From Candidatus Vesicomyidisocius sp. Agig_15_S12 (GTDB lineage: Bacteria > Pseudomonadota > Gammaproteobacteria > PS1 > Pseudothioglobaceae), in contig CP072532.1 of assembly GCA_021730225.1 (NCBI GenBank), forward strand, positions 455,230-519,229: a stretch of DNA of 64,000 nt, given 5' to 3'. The translations under genes and the position numbers were made by a program. Below the pieces are notes generated by a model. That model worked only from the letters and a program-made list of their open reading frames with translations, made no database searches and was not told the DNA's origin. This document shows, piece after piece, positions 3,755 to 57,742 of this stretch; within the stretch, counting starts at the first letter, position 1, and each line of letters starts with the position of its first letter.

Positions 3755-5083
<1,329 letters not shown>

Positions 5084-5086
5084 TTA

Positions 5087-7204
5087 ATGTCAGATCCTCA
5101 TTATAAAAGAGAGTCAAAAAAGTATGACAACTCAATTCCTTCAAGAAAATATATCCTTAGTTTTTTTGAAAAAAAATCACGTACACTACATGAATTATAT
5201 GATTTATTAACTATTGATTATCGCCAAAAAAAACCTCTATCGCACCGTCTTACAGCTATGGTTCGTGATCAACAGCTTAATTTCGATCAACATGGTATGT
5301 ACCATAAATTTAGTGCTAAAAATGGTGTGATAACTGGAAGGGTGATTGCCAATCCTAAAGGTTTTGGTTTTATTACGTTAGACAAAGGTGGTAAAGACTT
5401 AAGACTCTCATTAAAACAAATGCAATTAGTCTTTCATGGTGATAAAGTACAAGCACGATTACTTAATCAACGTGGTGATGCACAAATTATCAAAGTTATC
5501 AAAAGCATTAAAACTGTAGTGGGACGTTTACATCTTGAAAAAAAATGTGCTTATGTTGTAGTTGATGATAAACGTATTAAGAATAATATTAGTATTTTTA
5601 ATATTAATAAAGAACACCAAGATAAACAAATTGTAATTGTTAAAATTACTAGATCCCCAACTTTGAAAAGCCTAGCAATAGGTGAAATTATTCAAATCTT
5701 GGGTGTCTACATGGATGAAGGAATCGAGACAGATTCTGCTCTTTATCGAAATAGTATTCCTGTTGATTTTTCACTAGGAGCATTTGAACAAACCTCTAAA
5801 TTACCAATTGTAGTTACTGATTCTGATAAAAAAGGTCGAATTGATATCACTAAAATGAAGCTAGTTACCATTGATGGTGAAGATTCTCGTGATTTTGACG
5901 ATGCTGTGTATGCACAAGTCACTAGAAAAGGTTGGAAACTAATTGTCGCTATTGCTGATGTATCACATTATGTAAAAGAAGGATCAGATTTAGATAAAGA
6001 CGCTTTTGATCGTGGTAATTCGGTATATTTTCCACGCCGTGTTGTGCCAATGTTACCTGAAATTTTATCAAATGGCTTATGTTCGATCAATCCTGGTGTT
6101 GAACGATTATGTATGACTTGTGAGATGAATATTGATACTCATGGCAACCTATTAGATTATAAGTTTTATCCTGCTATTATGTTCTCACATGCTCGATTAA
6201 CGTACACTAAAGTTAATCAAATTTTAAAGCATCATGATACTAATTTAACCCAGTACTATGCACCAGTAATGAACAATTTAAACGCATTATATAACTTATA
6301 CAAATCACTTAGAACTTCCAGGATTAAACGTGGAGTAATGGATTTTGATCGTATTGAATCACAAATTTTATTTAAAAATAATGGTAAAATTTCTAATATT
6401 GTTGATCGTTCTCGTAACGATGCCCATAAACTGATTGAAGAATGTATGCTAATGGCTAATCAAGCAAGTGCAAAATTTTTAAATCATCATAATGAAGATT
6501 TTTTATATCGGATTCATCCAAAACCTACAGCTGAAAAAGTAGAGGTTACTCGTCAATTTTTAACTGCTATTGGCTTAACACTTGAAGGTGGCATACAACC
6601 AGAATCTAAAGATTTTGCTAAAGTTCTTGAAGATTCTAAAGGTAGAAATGATGAAAATATAATCAAAACCATTGTGTTGCGCACAATGAAACAAGCTGTT
6701 TACACCCCTACCAATGAAGGTCACTTTGGCTTAGCATTTGAAGACTACACCCACTTTACATCACCAATTAGACGTTACCCTGATCTTCTAGTACATCGCG
6801 CTATTAAACGTGTTTTAGGCAAAAAAGGTAAGAAACCAAGTAAAAAAATGTTTGAATTTGGTGCACATCTATCTATGACTGAACGTCGTGCAGATGATGC
6901 TTCACGTGATGTTGAACAGTGGTTAAAATGTGAATATATGCTTGATAAGATAGGAGATCGATTTAATGGTGTTATTTCTGGTATTGCTAGTTTTGGCATT
7001 TTCATTGAACTTACTGATATCTTTGTCGAAGGTATGATTCCTTTGTGTGACATGAAAGATGATTATTATGTTTTCGATAACATTAACCAGCAACTCAAAG
7101 GAGAACTTACTGGTAAAGTTTATCAATTAGGAAGTACTATCAAAATCCAAGTTACCTCTGTTAATCTTGATAATAGACAAATAATGTTTTCTCCTATAGA
7201 ATAA
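5087..7204 (+). CDS. rnr: Ribonuclease R (3'-5' exoribonuclease)
   Basis: 705 residues against about 810 in E. coli. An N-terminal winged-helix-like segment (about 18-75) is followed by cold-shock domains (VTGRVIANPKGFGFITLD-type motif near 80-100). The RNB catalytic domain has DSRDFDD at 266-272 carrying the Mg-binding aspartates. A C-terminal S1 domain (FNGVISGIASFGIFIEL onward) completes it. The protein stops right at the end of S1, so the Lys-rich tail found in E. coli RNase R is absent. It degrades structured RNA and takes part in rRNA quality control. It is the last gene of the hflK operon and converges on ilvD. Confidence 0.96.
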   Translation: MSDPHYKRESKKYDNSIPSRKYILSFFEKKSRTLHELYDLLTIDYRQKKPLSHRLTAMVRDQQLNFDQHGMYHKFSAKNGVITGRVIANPKGFGFITLDKGGKDLRLSLKQMQLVFHGDKVQARLLNQRGDAQIIKVIKSIKTVVGRLHLEKKCAYVVVDDKRIKNNISIFNINKEHQDKQIVIVKITRSPTLKSLAIGEIIQILGVYMDEGIETDSALYRNSIPVDFSLGAFEQTSKLPIVVTDSDKKGRIDITKMKLVTIDGEDSRDFDDAVYAQVTRKGWKLIVAIADVSHYVKEGSDLDKDAFDRGNSVYFPRRVVPMLPEILSNGLCSINPGVERLCMTCEMNIDTHGNLLDYKFYPAIMFSHARLTYTKVNQILKHHDTNLTQYYAPVMNNLNALYNLYKSLRTSRIKRGVMDFDRIESQILFKNNGKISNIVDRSRNDAHKLIEECMLMANQASAKFLNHHNEDFLYRIHPKPTAEKVEVTRQFLTAIGLTLEGGIQPESKDFAKVLEDSKGRNDENIIKTIVLRTMKQAVYTPTNEGHFGLAFEDYTHFTSPIRRYPDLLVHRAIKRVLGKKGKKPSKKMFEFGAHLSMTERRADDASRDVEQWLKCEYMLDKIGDRFNGVISGIASFGIFIELTDIFVEGMIPLCDMKDDYYVFDNINQQLKGELTGKVYQLGSTIKIQVTSVNLDNRQIMFSPIE

Positions 7205-19942: not shown

Positions 19943-20608
19943 TTAATTATTAATCTTTGATTTTATGATGATTTTACTAAGTAGTTGCTTGGCTCTATTA
20001 ATTGCTTTATGTGAAGGAAATTTCACCAGCATTGTACTTAATAAACCACGTGCTTTGTCTTGTTTATTGAGTTTTATATATACTTTAGCCAATTCAAATA
20101 AAGAGTTTGAAAATTTATAATGCAATGGGTTTTGTTGTTGAAATACAATAAAAGTATTTTTAGCATTATGAAAATCTTCTTTAGCCAAATAAGATTTAGC
20201 TAACCAGTAGTACACATCTGAAGTGTAACCACTATTAGAATAATCTGCTAAATATTGCTTAAATAACTTAATAGCTTGGTCATATTGCTCTGTTATTAGC
20301 AAACTACGAGCCTGCGTATAAACACGTTTGGCTTTTTTATCATACCCTATCGTTTTAAACGAAGTTTCTTTAATTATACCACTGGATTTTTGATAAGTAA
20401 TTAAGTTAAACAACTCTTTAATTTTTCCAGCACTTACTTCCTGTTGTTGTTCTAACAACTCAATTTTACCTACTAAAATTTTATTTTTAAACAGCAAACT
20501 CTTAATTTTTTGATTATGATCTATAACTACTTTTTCTGTATTAATACCTGAATAAGCAGACTGTAATATAAAAATACTTAAAAAAATGAATAAACCAAGA
20601 TAATACAT
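19943..20608 (-). CDS. cpoB: Cell division coordinator CpoB (YbgF), TPR protein
   Basis: 221 residues. A signal peptide (about 1-20, ending near QSAYSG) is followed by a coiled-coil segment (about 28-70; KNKILVGKIELLEQQQEV) and tetratricopeptide repeats (QARSLLITEQYDQAIKLFKQ; SDVYYWLAKSYLAKEDFHNA; SNSLFELAKVYIKLNKQDKA). This is the CpoB/YbgF layout. In E. coli it binds TolA and coordinates peptidoglycan synthesis with outer-membrane constriction. It lies 6 bp after pal. No tolA, tolQ or tolR is in this window. Confidence 0.9.
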   Translation of the reverse strand: MYYLGLFIFLSIFILQSAYSGINTEKVVIDHNQKIKSLLFKNKILVGKIELLEQQQEVSAGKIKELFNLITYQKSSGIIKETSFKTIGYDKKAKRVYTQARSLLITEQYDQAIKLFKQYLADYSNSGYTSDVYYWLAKSYLAKEDFHNAKNTFIVFQQQNPLHYKFSNSLFELAKVYIKLNKQDKARGLLSTMLVKFPSHKAINRAKQLLSKIIIKSKINN

Positions 20609-20614
20609 GAAACT

Positions 20615-21145
20615 TTATTGATAAATAAACTCAACACGCCTATTTTTCTGCCATGCACCTTCATCGTGTTGTTGAATCATGGGCTTTTCTTCACCAAAAC
20701 TAATAACTTTAATTCTTGAAGAAAGATCATACAGGCTTAATACTTCTTTAACATTCAAAGCACGATTTTCACCTAGTGCTAAGTTATATTCACGTGTACC
20801 GCGTTCATCTGCATGACCTTCTAGACGTAATGTTAGTGTTGGATTATTACGCATAAAGTTTGCATGTTTGATAATTTGTTCAATTGAGGTCTTATCAATC
20901 TCAGCGCCATCATCAGAAAAATATAAAATAAAGTTAACACCAGTCTTTCTAAAGCTTGTTACAATAACTGATTCAGTAATACTTGCTATACTTGTAATAT
21001 CGAAAACATTTTCTTGCACGTGTTTCATTCTATCTTCAATGGAAACTATGCTTGACTTAGTTAATACTTTTCTATACAAATCGTTCCCAGATAAACATGA
21101 TGACAACAGTACTACTACTATTAACAAGGATATTAATTTTAACAT
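20615..21145 (-). CDS. pal: Peptidoglycan-associated lipoprotein Pal
   Basis: 176 residues. The N-terminal lipoprotein signal ends in the lipobox LLSSC (Cys near residue 17). The OmpA-like peptidoglycan-binding domain covers about residues 70-175, with NPTLTLRLEGHADERGTREY and ALGENRALNVKEVL carrying the Asp and Arg that bind diaminopimelate. The usual 'VYFDFDS' strand has drifted to ILYFSDDGAEI. Pal ties the outer membrane to the wall with TolB. It lies 11 bp after tolB. Confidence 0.95.
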   Translation of the reverse strand: MLKLISLLIVVVLLSSCLSGNDLYRKVLTKSSIVSIEDRMKHVQENVFDITSIASITESVIVTSFRKTGVNFILYFSDDGAEIDKTSIEQIIKHANFMRNNPTLTLRLEGHADERGTREYNLALGENRALNVKEVLSLYDLSSRIKVISFGEEKPMIQQHDEGAWQKNRRVEFIYQ

Positions 21146-21156
21146 TTTAACGGTGC

Positions 21157-22431
21157 CTATTTTAAATAATGTGACCAGTTTGGTTCTCTCACTTCTCCCA
21201 CTTTACTAGTTAGATCGAAAATTTTACGACCCCATGTTGAAACCACAGAAAGTACTCCAAACCCGCCTTGGTTAGTAGCAAAGATAATCATATCTCCATT
21301 TGGCGAGAAGAATGGAGACTCATCTAGTTGATTATTAGTCATGACTGTTAAGTCTTTAGTAGCAATATCTAATAAAGCGATACGATAATCTTGATCTATC
21401 TTATGTATCATAATCAAGCTTTTACCATCAGGTGAAAAAACGGCTTTGGCATTATATTTGCCTTTAAAAGTTACTCTATTAATTCTATTAGTTTTTAAAT
21501 CTTTAATATAAACTTGTACTTGTCCAGAACGATTAGAGGTAAATACAATTTTATTACCATCTGGTGAATAGCTTGCTTCAGTATCAATACCCATATCTAT
21601 AGTTAAGCGTGTTAGTTTTTTAGAGGATAAATGATAGGAATAAATATCTGCGTTACCATTTTTAGATAATGTAAGTAAGAGGATTCCACCATTAGGATGC
21701 CAAGAAGGTGATGAAGAAATACCATCAAAATAAGGTATTTTTTGTATTTTCCTACGTATAAATGGGTATTGAATGAACACCTCTGAACGAGAGTTTTTAA
21801 AAAACACATAAGCAATCTTATCCTGTTTAGGCGACCAAACAGGGGACAAAATAGGTTCTCTAGATTTTAAGATAGTTTGGGGATTTTGGGCATCAGAATC
21901 TGATATCTCTAAGCGATATTCACGTTCACCTTTATTCTTATTAATAACAGTAATATAGGCTAGACGCGTATTAAAAAACCCTCTCTTACCTAGTAAGGCA
22001 TGATAAATTTGATCAGATAAATAGTGGGCAGCTCTTCTAATACCATTATTATGTACGGTAAGTGTATCTTTATAAAGTGTTTTCTTAGAATAAACATCCA
22101 GTAATTTAATCTCAACATTAAAAATTTTTTTACTAATCTTTTCTAACTTACCTAGTACAATAGCTTCAATTTTTTTTGCCTTCCATTTATCAAAACTAGG
22201 TTCATTACTAATGACATAATTTGTATTAACAACACTAAATTCGCCTGAACGATTAAAATTATTACGCATAATATCTGCAATGATTTTTCCTTGGCTTGCA
22301 TCATCTACAACAAAAAAATCAGAAATAACAATAGGAAAAGTATTTCCATCATGTTTGAAAATGGTGACTTCTAATACTGCCCAAGAAAGAGTTGTATAAA
22401 GTGATAAAATAAAAACAATAAATTGTTTCAT
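21157..22431 (-). CDS. tolB: Tol-Pal system periplasmic protein TolB
   Basis: 424 residues, the usual TolB length. A signal peptide (cleavage near LSWA) precedes an N-terminal alpha/beta domain (about 20-160). A WD40-like beta-propeller of repeated 'SPDG.KI.F.S.R.G' blades follows (for example ASYSPDGNKIVFTSNRSGQ and AVFSPDGKSLIMI). It binds Pal and, in complete systems, TolA. The ATG overlaps the iscX stop (ATGA), implying translational coupling to iscX rather than to tolA as in E. coli. Confidence 0.96.
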   Translation of the reverse strand: MKQFIVFILSLYTTLSWAVLEVTIFKHDGNTFPIVISDFFVVDDASQGKIIADIMRNNFNRSGEFSVVNTNYVISNEPSFDKWKAKKIEAIVLGKLEKISKKIFNVEIKLLDVYSKKTLYKDTLTVHNNGIRRAAHYLSDQIYHALLGKRGFFNTRLAYITVINKNKGEREYRLEISDSDAQNPQTILKSREPILSPVWSPKQDKIAYVFFKNSRSEVFIQYPFIRRKIQKIPYFDGISSSPSWHPNGGILLLTLSKNGNADIYSYHLSSKKLTRLTIDMGIDTEASYSPDGNKIVFTSNRSGQVQVYIKDLKTNRINRVTFKGKYNAKAVFSPDGKSLIMIHKIDQDYRIALLDIATKDLTVMTNNQLDESPFFSPNGDMIIFATNQGGFGVLSVVSTWGRKIFDLTSKVGEVREPNWSHYLK

Positions 22432-31888: not shown

Positions 31889-32314
31889 TTAGTTAATTAA
31901 TTCAATTTTTCTAAGCATTCGTGCTAATTTATCTAACGAAACATTAATAAGTTTATATGAACCTTCTGCGCCATATAATTTTGCCAATGCAAGTGATTCG
32001 TTAATTACGACTTTATAAGGAACTTCTGAGTTAAATTTAAGTTCAAAAGTACCTAGATATAAAATAGAATGTTCAACAGATCCTAGCTCTTCAGTTCCCC
32101 GACTAATACTTGATGTAATTAGCTCATCTAATACAAATCTATTTTCAAGGATATTGATAAATAAATTTGAAAAGAAAACTTTTGAAATTTTTCCTTGTTT
32201 CTGGTTTAGAAATTGTTGTTCAATTTGAAATACTTCACCACCTGATACTAAATATTGATACAATGCTTGTATTACACGTTCGCGGGTGCGTTGCTTTGGA
32301 GTTTTAAAGGGCAT
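31889..32314 (-). CDS. nusB: Transcription antitermination factor NusB
   Basis: 141 residues, all-alpha NusB fold. The N terminus PFKTPKQRTRERVIQALYQYLVSG carries the Arg-rich boxA-RNA-binding helix. The later blocks ILYLGTFELKFNSEVPYKVVINESLALAKLYG and INVSLDKLARMLR are standard. It binds boxA with S10 in rRNA antitermination and, in E. coli, works with SuhB (also in this window). It follows ribH by 2 bp, the usual ribH-nusB pairing. Confidence 0.96.
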   Translation of the reverse strand: MPFKTPKQRTRERVIQALYQYLVSGGEVFQIEQQFLNQKQGKISKVFFSNLFINILENRFVLDELITSSISRGTEELGSVEHSILYLGTFELKFNSEVPYKVVINESLALAKLYGAEGSYKLINVSLDKLARMLRKIELIN

Positions 32315-32316
32315 AG

Positions 32317-32820
32317 TTAAAAAAATTGGGTATCTGCTTGTTGTATTAAATAAAGCATTATAATCATCGCCATAGTTGCTTCTTCGCCTTTGTTTCCTTT
32401 ATAACTACCAGACCTAGCAATAGCTTGCTCCATGTTATTTGTAGTAATAACACCAAAAGTAGTTGGGATTTCATACTGATAAGAAACATTTGATACGCCT
32501 CGAGCGCATTCATTACAAACAAACTTAAAATGAGGAGTTTCGCCGTTAATTACAGTACCTAAAGCCACAATACCATCGTATAAGTTTCCCCCATTTATTT
32601 GTTGGCTTGCTAATTTTTTAGCTAATAATGGAATTTCAAATGCACCAGGAGCATAAAATACATTAACATTATTATCCTTAATACCATACTTGATTAAAGT
32701 TTTTTGTGCTGCTAATAATAGATTATCACAAATATCTTGGTAAAAATAACCCACAATAATGGCAATTTTTTTCTTTGAAAGAAAATTTCTACTAACATCT
32801 TTATTAAATTTAAATTCCAT
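32317..32820 (-). CDS. ribH: 6,7-Dimethyl-8-ribityllumazine synthase
   Basis: 167 residues. Conserved elements are VFYAPGAFEIPLLAKKL, GIVALGTVINGETPHFKFVCNE (with the active-site region HFKFV) and PTTFGVITTNNMEQAIARSG. It condenses the ribityl-pyrimidine with dihydroxybutanone phosphate. It lies 10 bp after ribBA in the ribE-ribBA-ribH-nusB operon. ribD, usually nearby, is not in the window. Confidence 0.97.
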   Translation of the reverse strand: MEFKFNKDVSRNFLSKKKIAIIVGYFYQDICDNLLLAAQKTLIKYGIKDNNVNVFYAPGAFEIPLLAKKLASQQINGGNLYDGIVALGTVINGETPHFKFVCNECARGVSNVSYQYEIPTTFGVITTNNMEQAIARSGSYKGNKGEEATMAMIIMLYLIQQADTQFF

Positions 32821-41020: not shown

Positions 41021-41254
41021 CTACCCTGTTTTTTCTACAAAAATAATAATTTCATTAGTTTTTTGATTAACTAAAATCACTTTATGTCCATGAACTTTAC
41101 ACCAAGCAGATATATCATGAAGCACACCAGTATCAGTAGTTAATATTTCAATTGTGTCATTAATTTCAATTTTTTTAATCATCTCACCCAAACGGATAAC
41201 TGACATAGGACAAAATAAATGTTTAACGTTAAGATTATATTTCACTCTGTTCAA
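41021..41254 (-). CDS. TusA/SirA-family sulfur-carrier protein
   Basis: 77 residues with the TusA fold pattern: a Cys in [18 protein letters not shown] (usually CP.P), then [25 protein letters not shown], which matches 'L.V.ATD.....D...WC...GH'. TusA-type proteins pass persulfide sulfur to tRNA thiolation or, in sulfur oxidisers, between rhodanese and Dsr/Hdr systems. It overlaps hemF by 4 bp in a tsaC-hemF-tusA operon. The second Pro of the CPxP motif is Ser here. Role in tRNA modification versus sulfur oxidation cannot be told from sequence. Confidence 0.82.
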
Positions 41255-42162
41255 AAAGAGATATTAATCCAATCTTGAGGCTGAATAAAACGAGTATATA
41301 ATCTTTCTTCTTCACTACCTGGTTCTGGTTTATACTGGTATTGCCAACGAACCAACGGTGGTATTGACATCAAAATTGACTCTGTTCGTCCATCTGTTTG
41401 CAATCCAAATAAAGTGCCACGATCATAAACTAAATTAAATTCAACATAACGCCCTCTACGATAAAGTTGGAATTGCCTTTCATTGTCTGTATAGGGCGTA
41501 TCTTTTCTACGTTCAACAATAGGTCGATAAGCCTTAATATAAGCATCGCCCACGCTTCTCATAAAAGCAAAGCATTCATCAAAACCACCTTCATTTAAAT
41601 CATCAAAGAATAAACCACCAATACCACGTTGTTCATCTCTATGCTTTAAATAAAAATAATCATCGCACCATTTTTTGTATTTTAAATACACGTCTTTACC
41701 AAATAAGTCACATGCTTGTTTAGCTGATTGATGCCAAAAAATTGCATCTTCATCAAAACCATAATATGGAGTTAAATCAAAACCACCTCCAAACCACCAA
41801 ATAGGAATTTTACCTTTTTTTTTAGCGATAAAAAATCGAACATTAGCATGTGAAGTTGGCACATAAGGATTATGTGGATGAATCACTAATGATACACCTA
41901 AAGCAGTAAAGCTACGTCCTGCCAACTCAGGTCTTAGTGCAGTAGCTGAAGCTGGCATATTATTACTACGTATAATTGAAAAATTAACACCTGCTTGTTC
42001 AAATACAGCGCCATTGACTAGTATTAGAGTCAAACCATTGCCTGTATTATTTGGCTTTTTCCAAACGTCTTTAATAAAATTGACTTTACCATCTAGTTGT
42101 TCAATTTGTTTACAAATATCGGCTTGCAACATCAGTAAATACTTTTGAAGTTTTTCAATCAT
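41251..42162 (-). CDS. hemF: Oxygen-dependent coproporphyrinogen III oxidase
   Basis: 303 residues, usual length. Signature blocks: [55 protein letters not shown] and [30 protein letters not shown]. It oxidatively decarboxylates coproporphyrinogen III with O2, so the organism lives where some oxygen is available. It overlaps tsaC by 4 bp and the TusA gene by 4 bp. Confidence 0.98.
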
Positions 42163-45658: not shown

Positions 45659-46459
45659 ATGCATCCTACGCTTAATATTGCCATTAAAGTCGCTAGAAAA
45701 GCTGGCAATATCATTTTAAGATATCACAATCAAATTGATCTTTTAACGATTAAAAATAAAACAACTAATGATTTTGTTTATGAAGTAAATAAAGCTGCTA
45801 AAGATGCCATTATAAACGAGTTAAAATACACCTTCCCTAGTCATTCAATTTTATATGAAGAAAAAAGTAAAATCTTAGACAATAATCGTTTTCAATGGAT
45901 TATTGATCCATTGAATGGCGCTACTAATTACTTACATGGTTTTCCCCAATATTCTGTCTCGATTGCTTTGTATGAAAATAAAGAGCCAAAACATGCTGTA
46001 GTATATGATCCATTTAAGGAAGAATTATTTACTACTTCTAAAGGAGAAGGTGCTTACTTAAACGAACAAAGAATTCGCATAACACATACTAATGGTTTTG
46101 AAAATACATTAATTGGTACAGGTTTTTCATTCAAAGAATCAAAACATTTAGATACTTATTTAAGTATGTTTAAAGCCATTTGTCTAAAGGTTTCTGGTAT
46201 TCGTCATACTGGCTCTGCTGCACTTAATCTAGCGTATTTAGCTGCAGGTCGGTTAGATGGTTTTTGGGAAATTGAACTTAATATTTGGAACATTGCTGCT
46301 GGTGTACTTTTAGTTAAAGAAGCAGGTGGTTTTGTAGGTGACTTTTCAGGACGAGATAAATATCTAAAAACAGGCAATGTAGTAGCTGGCAATAACCAAG
46401 TTTTTAAAGCAATTTTAAAAACCATTCATCCTTATTTAACAGTTAAATTACAACGTTAA
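45659..46459 (+). CDS. suhB: SuhB (inositol-monophosphatase family) with substituted metal ligands
   Basis: 266 residues, E. coli SuhB length (267). The fold is intact: ARKAGNIILRYHN, HSILYEEKS (metal Glu), the VVYDPFKEELFTTSKGEGAYLN block, GSAALNLAYLAAGRLDGFWE. The motif DPLDGTTNF is DPLNGATNY here: the second metal-binding Asp is Asn86 and the Thr is Ala88. The C-terminal WDxAAG is WNIAAG: that Asp is Asn211. These equal Asp93, Thr95 and Asp220 of human IMPase. The phosphatase is therefore probably inactive. In E. coli SuhB has a non-catalytic role in rRNA antitermination, which could explain retention. Confidence 0.93.
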   Translation: MHPTLNIAIKVARKAGNIILRYHNQIDLLTIKNKTTNDFVYEVNKAAKDAIINELKYTFPSHSILYEEKSKILDNNRFQWIIDPLNGATNYLHGFPQYSVSIALYENKEPKHAVVYDPFKEELFTTSKGEGAYLNEQRIRITHTNGFENTLIGTGFSFKESKHLDTYLSMFKAICLKVSGIRHTGSAALNLAYLAAGRLDGFWEIELNIWNIAAGVLLVKEAGGFVGDFSGRDKYLKTGNVVAGNNQVFKAILKTIHPYLTVKLQR

Positions 46460-56364: not shown

Positions 56365-57627
56365 TTACTTCTTTTGCGACATTAAAGCAAAAAATTCGTC
56401 ATTAGTTTTAGTCAACTTTAAACGATTAATTAAGAATTCAGCTGCTTCGACAGTATCCATTGGATGTAAAATCTTTCGTAAAATCCATATTTTTTGTAAT
56501 TCTTTTTCATCAGTAATTAATTCTTCACGACGTGTACCAGAAGCATTAATGTTAATCGCTGGAAAAATTCGTTTCTCACTTAAGCGTTTCTCCAAATGAA
56601 GTTCCATATTACCAGTACCTTTGAATTCTTGATAAATAACTTCATCCATTTTTGAGCCAGTATCAATCAATGCAGTGGCAATAATAGTAATACTACCTCC
56701 ATTTTCAATATTTCTTGCCGCTCCAAAAAAACGTTTAGGACGTTGTAGCGCATTAGCATCAACCCCACCTGTTAAAACTTTACCTGATGAAGGAGAAATT
56801 GTATTATAAGCACGTGCCAAACGTGTAATTGAGTCTAATAAAATTATCACATCTTTGCCTTGTTCTGAACGTCGTTTTGTTTTTTGGATAACCATTTCAG
56901 CAACTTGCACATGACGTTTTGCTGGTTCATCAAACGTTGAAGCGATTACCTCTCCACGAACAGTACGAGCCATTTCCGTCACCTCTTCAGGACGCTCATC
57001 GATTAAAAGCACAATAAGTTCACATTCTGGATGGTTAACCGAAATAGACGTAGCAATATTTTGCATAATCATAGTTTTACCTGCCTTGGGAGGCGCAACT
57101 AATAAACCTCTTTGACCTTTTCCAAATGGTGCAACCAGATCAATTACTCTAGCAGTAATATCCTCGGTACCACCATTGCCAACTTCTAAATTAATCCTTT
57201 CATTAGGATGAATAGGTGTTAGTGAAGCAAATGGAATCCTATTCCTAACATTATCTGGATCTTCACTATTCACTTCTGATACCTTAATTAAAGCAAAATA
57301 CTTTTCACCTTTTTTAGGTGCTCTAATTTTCCCCGCAACCAAATCACCAGTCGATAAATTAAAACGTCTAATTTGATTAGGCGAAATATAAATATCATCT
57401 GCACCTGAGGTATAAGAATCATCACTTGATCTTAAAAAACCATAACCATCTTGCAACACATCCAAAACACCATCACCCAAAACTTCCTCATCATTAGCCG
57501 CTTTGGCTTTAAGAATAATAAAAATTAAGGTTTGTTTTTTAGCTCTAGAAATATTTTCTGCACCTAAAGATTGTGCCAGTTCTAGTAATTTCTCTGGGCT
57601 AAATTTTTTTAGTTCTGATAATTTCAT
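56365..57627 (-). CDS. rho: Transcription termination factor Rho
   Basis: 420 residues from ATG 57627 ([19 protein letters not shown]), the family's usual beginning; an ATG at 57639 adds four. The RNA-binding cold-shock domain has [22 protein letters not shown]. The ATPase has P-loop [11 protein letters not shown] (about 175), Walker [17 protein letters not shown] and the secondary RNA site [11 protein letters not shown]. It acts as a hexameric helicase ending transcription. It lies downstream of trxA on the same strand, the classical trxA-rho order. It is important here because many genes lack visible intrinsic terminators. Confidence 0.98.
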
Positions 57628-57742
57628 GAATGTGTCCATATTAAGGTTAAGTATTTTTACTTAATTAGAGATGCGTATCTAAAATACTATAAAACTTTGT
57701 TAAACTAACTACTTAATAGAAAAATAATCAGTTATTTAGTCT

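Follow-up and report, generated by a model that had tools for sequence, protein, structure and literature searches.

The SuhB protein of Vesicomyosocius, a lineage of clam symbionts, is probably a catalytically dead pseudo-phosphatase that has been kept for its Nus (rRNA) role; we infer both the loss of activity and the Nus role. Loss of the phosphatase site with retained selection on the rest of suhB is well supported, and antitermination as the role that SuhB retains is plausible but unproven. The gene (45659-46459, + strand) lies in a 64,000-nucleotide stretch of DNA that was analysed as a whole, here called the window, from a complete genome of 1,033,397 bases. It is an intact open reading frame of 266 amino acids, and its product belongs to the inositol monophosphatase (IMPase; PF00459) family but has an eroded active site. 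The PF00459 (Inositol_P) profile matches the whole domain (positions 3-266 of 271) with 213 bits, compared with a cut-off of 27. The nearest solved structures are the SuhB proteins of P. aeruginosa and E. coli. The protein is a SuhB orthologue, since its best matches are SuhB chains and the locus adjoins trmJ in related genomes too.

IMPases bind their metals through one Glu and three Asp residues, which correspond to E67, D84, D87 and D212 of E. coli SuhB (PMC2080633). In the window protein E67 (codon 67, 45857-45859, + strand) and D84 are present, and D87 and D212 are Asn. E. coli numbering is used for these residues, and the equivalents of window codons 86, 88 and 211 (D87, T89 and D212, respectively) were taken from PDB alignments. 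The DPLDGT motif is replaced by DPLNGA (45905-45922, + strand), which keeps D84 and contains D87N (AAT, 45914-45916) and T89A (GCT, 45920-45922). WDIAAG is likewise replaced by WNIAAG (46286-46303, + strand), which contains D212N (AAC, 46289-46291). The preliminary description had placed codons 86 and 211 and Ala88 exactly where they are found, within an intact frame, and it was right that two metal-binding aspartates have been lost. It overlooked a third loss, D44N at codon 44 (45788-45790, + strand), a position that is Asp in E. coli and in all other compared relatives. The nucleophile-activating D44/T89 pair is gone, with Asn44 in four of four Vesicomyosocius-clade genomes and Ala88 in the window genome. 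We take the roles of these two residues to be those of D47 and T95 in human IMPase.

Two more changes are fixed in all four genomes at positions that are otherwise invariant in 34 comparison sequences. Codon 183 (46205-46207, + strand) is His at E. coli Arg184, and codon 190 (46226-46228, + strand) is Asn at E. coli Asp191. Papers citing the mutational work on E. coli SuhB describe an effect of R184 mutation on dimerisation. R184H therefore alters a dimerisation-linked residue, which counts against the preferred reading of a protein kept for its Nus role; R184 also varies in other reduced genomes. The share of active-site residues among universally invariant positions that changed is borderline (5/14 compared with 9/72, p = 0.047), with the active-site list taken from the human and bovine IMPase literature.

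If the losses act as expected from the family mechanism, Asn at D87 and D212 would remove the second metal site, and Asn at D44 (plus Ala at T89 in the window genome) would remove activation of the attacking water, so that phosphatase activity would be abolished. The first metal site (E67 and D84) may remain and might still help SuhB to fold or dimerise. That one metal site may still form counts against reading the protein as a pseudo-phosphatase. It is also the starting point for a decidedly unlikely alternative, in which SuhB is still active, or acts on another substrate, through the E67/D84 site with Asn ligands, or in which N86 partly deamidates to Asp. Asn-Gly is the fastest-deamidating pair, and E67, D84, the L86 carbonyl, K34, W211 and G88 are all conserved in window SuhB. 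However, D44, D87 and D212 are lost together, with T89 also lost in the window genome, and deamidation is unlikely for the N44-Lys and N211-Ile pairs. In M. tuberculosis, SuhB activity falls sharply when the metal sites are mutated (PMC2080633), and ImpC with the corresponding Asn change could not stand in for the wild type (PMC2834668). The latter paper presents Asn at the second Asp of DPxDGT as the standard dead mutant in E. coli SuhB, human IMPase and ImpC. Its residue numbers are D93N for E. coli and D90N for human IMPase, but by alignment the E. coli residue is D87, and the comparison with these dead mutants therefore rests on motif position.

D44N, D87N and D212N are fixed, as are R184H and D191N, in four of four Vesicomyosocius-clade genomes, and the SuhB proteins of the three nearest relatives are 95-97% identical to window SuhB. 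A sequencing error or an oddity of one genome is ruled out because the changes are common to the four genomes. The family comparison covered 71 SuhB loci, two of which are the same window gene and 66 of which lie outside the Vesicomyosocius clade. In these 66 loci D44 and D87 are always Asp, and D212 is Asp in 65 and Glu in one. At the class level, D44 is Asp in all 38 full-length relatives, and among 369 genomes the DPLDG pattern occurs in 324 and DPLNG, sought in an IMPase context, occurs in SuhB of one, the window genome. Convergent DPLNG elsewhere in the class was considered and rejected, as the sole other pattern match (genome G113) is an unrelated protein. The triple loss of D44, D87 and D212 is seen only in Vesicomyosocius. 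The preliminary description had proposed dating the changes by alignment to relatives, and this comparison places the three substitutions on the Vesicomyosocius stem because they are fixed in four genomes and absent outside the clade. They would thus have occurred before the four sampled genomes split. T89A is private to the window genome, E205G is found only in genome G035 and A188T is found in two genomes, so the active site is still eroding in separate Vesicomyosocius lineages.

Partial erosion of the same site is seen elsewhere. Across the 369 class genomes, one further SuhB carries the D212N motif, that of G254, a 1.0 Mb genome from another family. This protein (L200/L209, G254:C1:548626-549435, + strand) has D212N together with E205A, R184C and A188T. 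SuhB is intact in the sister genome G453, and D212 is kept in the other eight genomes of the G254 genus. The sole other D212 change in the window family is D212E, as WEIAAG, in Ruthturnera CSMAG_640 (G044; L014, C51). These two cases show that the SuhB active site has been partly eroded more than once in small genomes. As a separate observation, suhB of the Bathymodiolus heckerae symbiont BHECKSOX (G071; L051/L132) has an in-frame TAA at the K251 position near the C-terminus, which is either a truncation or an assembly error.

The substitutions on the stem form a burst when they are set against a background of NusA, CysQ and 45 window genes, the latter compared in four genomes of Vesicomyosocius and in four to seven of Ruthia/Ruthturnera. 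Seven of the 14 Asp residues of SuhB that are invariant in Ruthia are Asn in all four Vesicomyosocius genomes, compared with 47/651 in the other 44 window genes (Fisher p = 3.5e-5). No other of the 45 genes is as accelerated as suhB, for which the ratio of Vesicomyosocius-Ruthia to Ruthia-Ruthia protein distance is 4.98 (median of the other genes 1.87, next highest 2.93). The Vesicomyosocius stem is the longest branch (0.16) in a SuhB tree built with FastTree. Net charge of the protein rises from about -12 to about +5, and in none of the other 44 genes does it move as far. Two side observations concern the same measures. Adenylosuccinate synthetase (window 3767-5083, + strand) has the largest count of such Asp changes after suhB, with 6/25 Ruthia-invariant Asp residues replaced by Asn in each of the four genomes. 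After suhB, net charge rises most in the genes at window 5087-7204 (+ strand) and 41251-42162 (- strand), with shifts of +16.6 and +12.6, respectively.

Genome-wide drift from Asp to Asn is ruled out as a full explanation by the 44-gene background, NusA and CysQ, although AT bias clearly supplied the mutations. The genome's second IMPase-family gene encodes CysQ, a SuhB paralogue of like fold, in which DPLDGT and WDTAAG are both retained in 11 of 11 genomes, and none of the 35 invariant Asp residues of NusA has become Asn. The effect in SuhB is therefore neither family-wide nor genome-wide. Among the fixed nonsynonymous base changes in suhB, 25/29 are GC to AT, a bias that exceeds that of the other genes (p = 0.015). 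The Vesicomyosocius lineage is without recA and mutY (PMC3202245), and the burst fits such a lineage if constraint was lifted from many sites. With 25/29 changes of this type, drift explains the substitutions with no adaptive component. The burst thus appears to stem from AT-biased mutation once constraint on the active site had relaxed, not from adaptation. It had been suggested that SuhB is under selection for the antitermination role alone. The enzyme site is indeed lost, the gene is selected and the machinery is present, but "selection for" overstates what these mostly GC to AT substitutions indicate.

The charge shift allows a second, rather unlikely reading, in which SuhB has been reshaped as a basic factor dedicated to binding rRNA. 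The 17-unit shift and the new lysines would then strengthen contact with nut RNA or with the acidic AR2 repeat of NusA.

Continued purifying selection on suhB is evident within the clade. Omega is 0.11-0.19 for every pair among the four Vesicomyosocius genomes (p of about 2e-6 or less against neutrality). No stops, indels or broken frames were found in suhB of these four genomes, although about 11 nonsense changes would be expected at the same synonymous divergence if the gene were not selected. Frameshifts or high dN/dS in sister genomes had been named as signs that would speak against a selected protein. The four intact frames, low omega and missing stops instead bear out the proposal that the rest of SuhB remains under selection. 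In Ruthia suhB has an omega of 0.054, the third lowest of the 45 genes, and in Vesicomyosocius it has an omega of 0.140, in mid-range. This shift from the lowest ranks to mid-range is the pattern expected when one of two constraints is removed and the other stays.

The same increase could reflect slow decay, in which the whole of suhB is weakly selected in a small, AT-biased, recombination-poor genome, both functions are fading and the Asn changes are one symptom. The strong GC to AT direction of the substitutions, the lost recA and mutY genes (PMC3202245) and the acceleration of NusB are all compatible with such a process. We consider it unlikely, as the omega of suhB is ordinary for the genome rather than raised, the four frames lack all of the expected nonsense changes and the NusA-contact residues are retained. 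True decay in the same window also takes a different form. tolB is split across three frames in G035, and in G038 it is cut short and most of pal is missing. The Tol-Pal cluster (window 19943-22431, - strand; a CpoB-like TPR protein, Pal and TolB) is intact in the window genome and in G034, and no other window gene has an omega as high as that of the CpoB-like TPR gene. In some members of the Vesicomyosocius clade, Tol-Pal is apparently in decay.

If SuhB is a pseudo-phosphatase kept for its Nus role, then its fold, its NusA AR2-contacting surface and its frame would be under purifying selection because a noncatalytic job is still needed. In E. coli, relief of suhB mutant phenotypes needs no IMPase activity (PMC6614801; PMC4807359), and K251 and L254 of SuhB bind NusA AR2, with the double mutation weakening binding by three orders of magnitude (PMC6614801). 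The equivalent residues, K250 and L253 (46406-46417, + strand), are kept in four of four genomes. NusA is full-length in 12 of 12 genus genomes, its domains are all kept, including the SuhB-binding AR2 repeat, and NusG is present. The preliminary description had named NusB and Rho as present in the window and had pointed to this interface and to boxA as places to look, and each of them is found. nusB (31889-32314, - strand), whose product joins SuhB in the complex for rRNA antitermination, matches PF01029 with 81 bits. rho (56365-57639, - strand), which encodes the terminator that the complex opposes, matches PF07497, PF07498 and PF00006. The leader of the single 16S gene found contains TTGCTCTTTAAAAATATATTAAACAACTTGTGTGGGCACTCG (genome 960606-960647, - strand), in which a boxC-like stretch comes after a boxA; the rRNA spacer has a boxA as well, GAGCTCTTTAACAATTTAATAC. 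These leader and spacer sequences resemble boxA and boxC of E. coli.

An AlphaFold2 model of window SuhB (pLDDT 90) has a TM score of 0.90-0.94 to P. aeruginosa SuhB and to the SuhB chains of 6tqn, an rrn antitermination complex. The model was made with a deeper alignment, and one made with close relatives only (pLDDT 53) was discarded. Within this complex, Vesicomyosocius SuhB may recruit NusB/S10 and NusA to boxA as the rRNA is transcribed, or stabilise them there, and so promote antitermination and rRNA maturation. By acceleration in Vesicomyosocius, nusB ranks third among the 45 genes (ratio 2.63), though its omega within the clade is low (0.09). Its acceleration suggests that part of the antitermination complex may be less constrained, which counts against the Nus role. 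A very improbable variant is that SuhB is retained for a different noncatalytic role, such as binding RNA polymerase or another partner, and not for the boxA/NusB complex. E. coli SuhB binds RNA polymerase holoenzyme, and SuhB-NusA contacts extend beyond AR2 (PMC6614801). However, boxA, the boxC-like sequences, NusA AR2 and K251/L254 are all kept, and these are the needs of the known complex.

The view that the rRNA role of E. coli SuhB does not depend on its phosphatase rests on laboratory mutants. Evolution appears to repeat this experiment at the same motif position throughout a whole symbiont clade, with an independent partial case in the second reduced genome, G254. Vesicomyosocius SuhB would thereby be a ready-made separation-of-function protein, and the relative weight of its two functions becomes testable in nature. 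The family name is a poor guide to inositol phosphatase activity in reduced genomes. One further match in the fold search, PDB 9mmi, is an IMPase-family protein described as performing a dephosphorylation in riboflavin biosynthesis, and ribH (window 32317-32820, - strand) adjoins nusB. If SuhB is dead, a reaction of this kind may fall to CysQ or to a different phosphatase.

Window SuhB is most directly compared with E. coli SuhB, which is both an IMPase and a Nus factor (6ib7, 6ib8, 6tqn). The two have the same fold (TM 0.87-0.94 across PDB chains), K251 and L254 are kept and an rRNA boxA is present. trmJ adjoins window suhB on the opposite strand, which we take to be the neighbour arrangement of E. 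coli as well. Unlike the E. coli protein, window SuhB has natural D44N, D87N, T89A, D212N, R184H and D191N changes, and SuhB of the window type has a net charge of about +5 to +7 rather than -3. It also resembles the engineered mutants of E. coli SuhB, human IMPase and M. tuberculosis ImpC (PMC2834668; DPINGT with D86N in ImpC), in that Asn (N86) stands in place of the second Asp of DPxDGT. Those laboratory mutants are single, whereas N86 of Vesicomyosocius was fixed by evolution along with D44N and D212N. As in pseudoenzymes generally, the fold is kept, catalytic residues are lost and purifying selection continues. It differs from them in that the loss is a recent event inside a single genus-level group, and in that the retained role is already separable from catalysis in E. 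coli.
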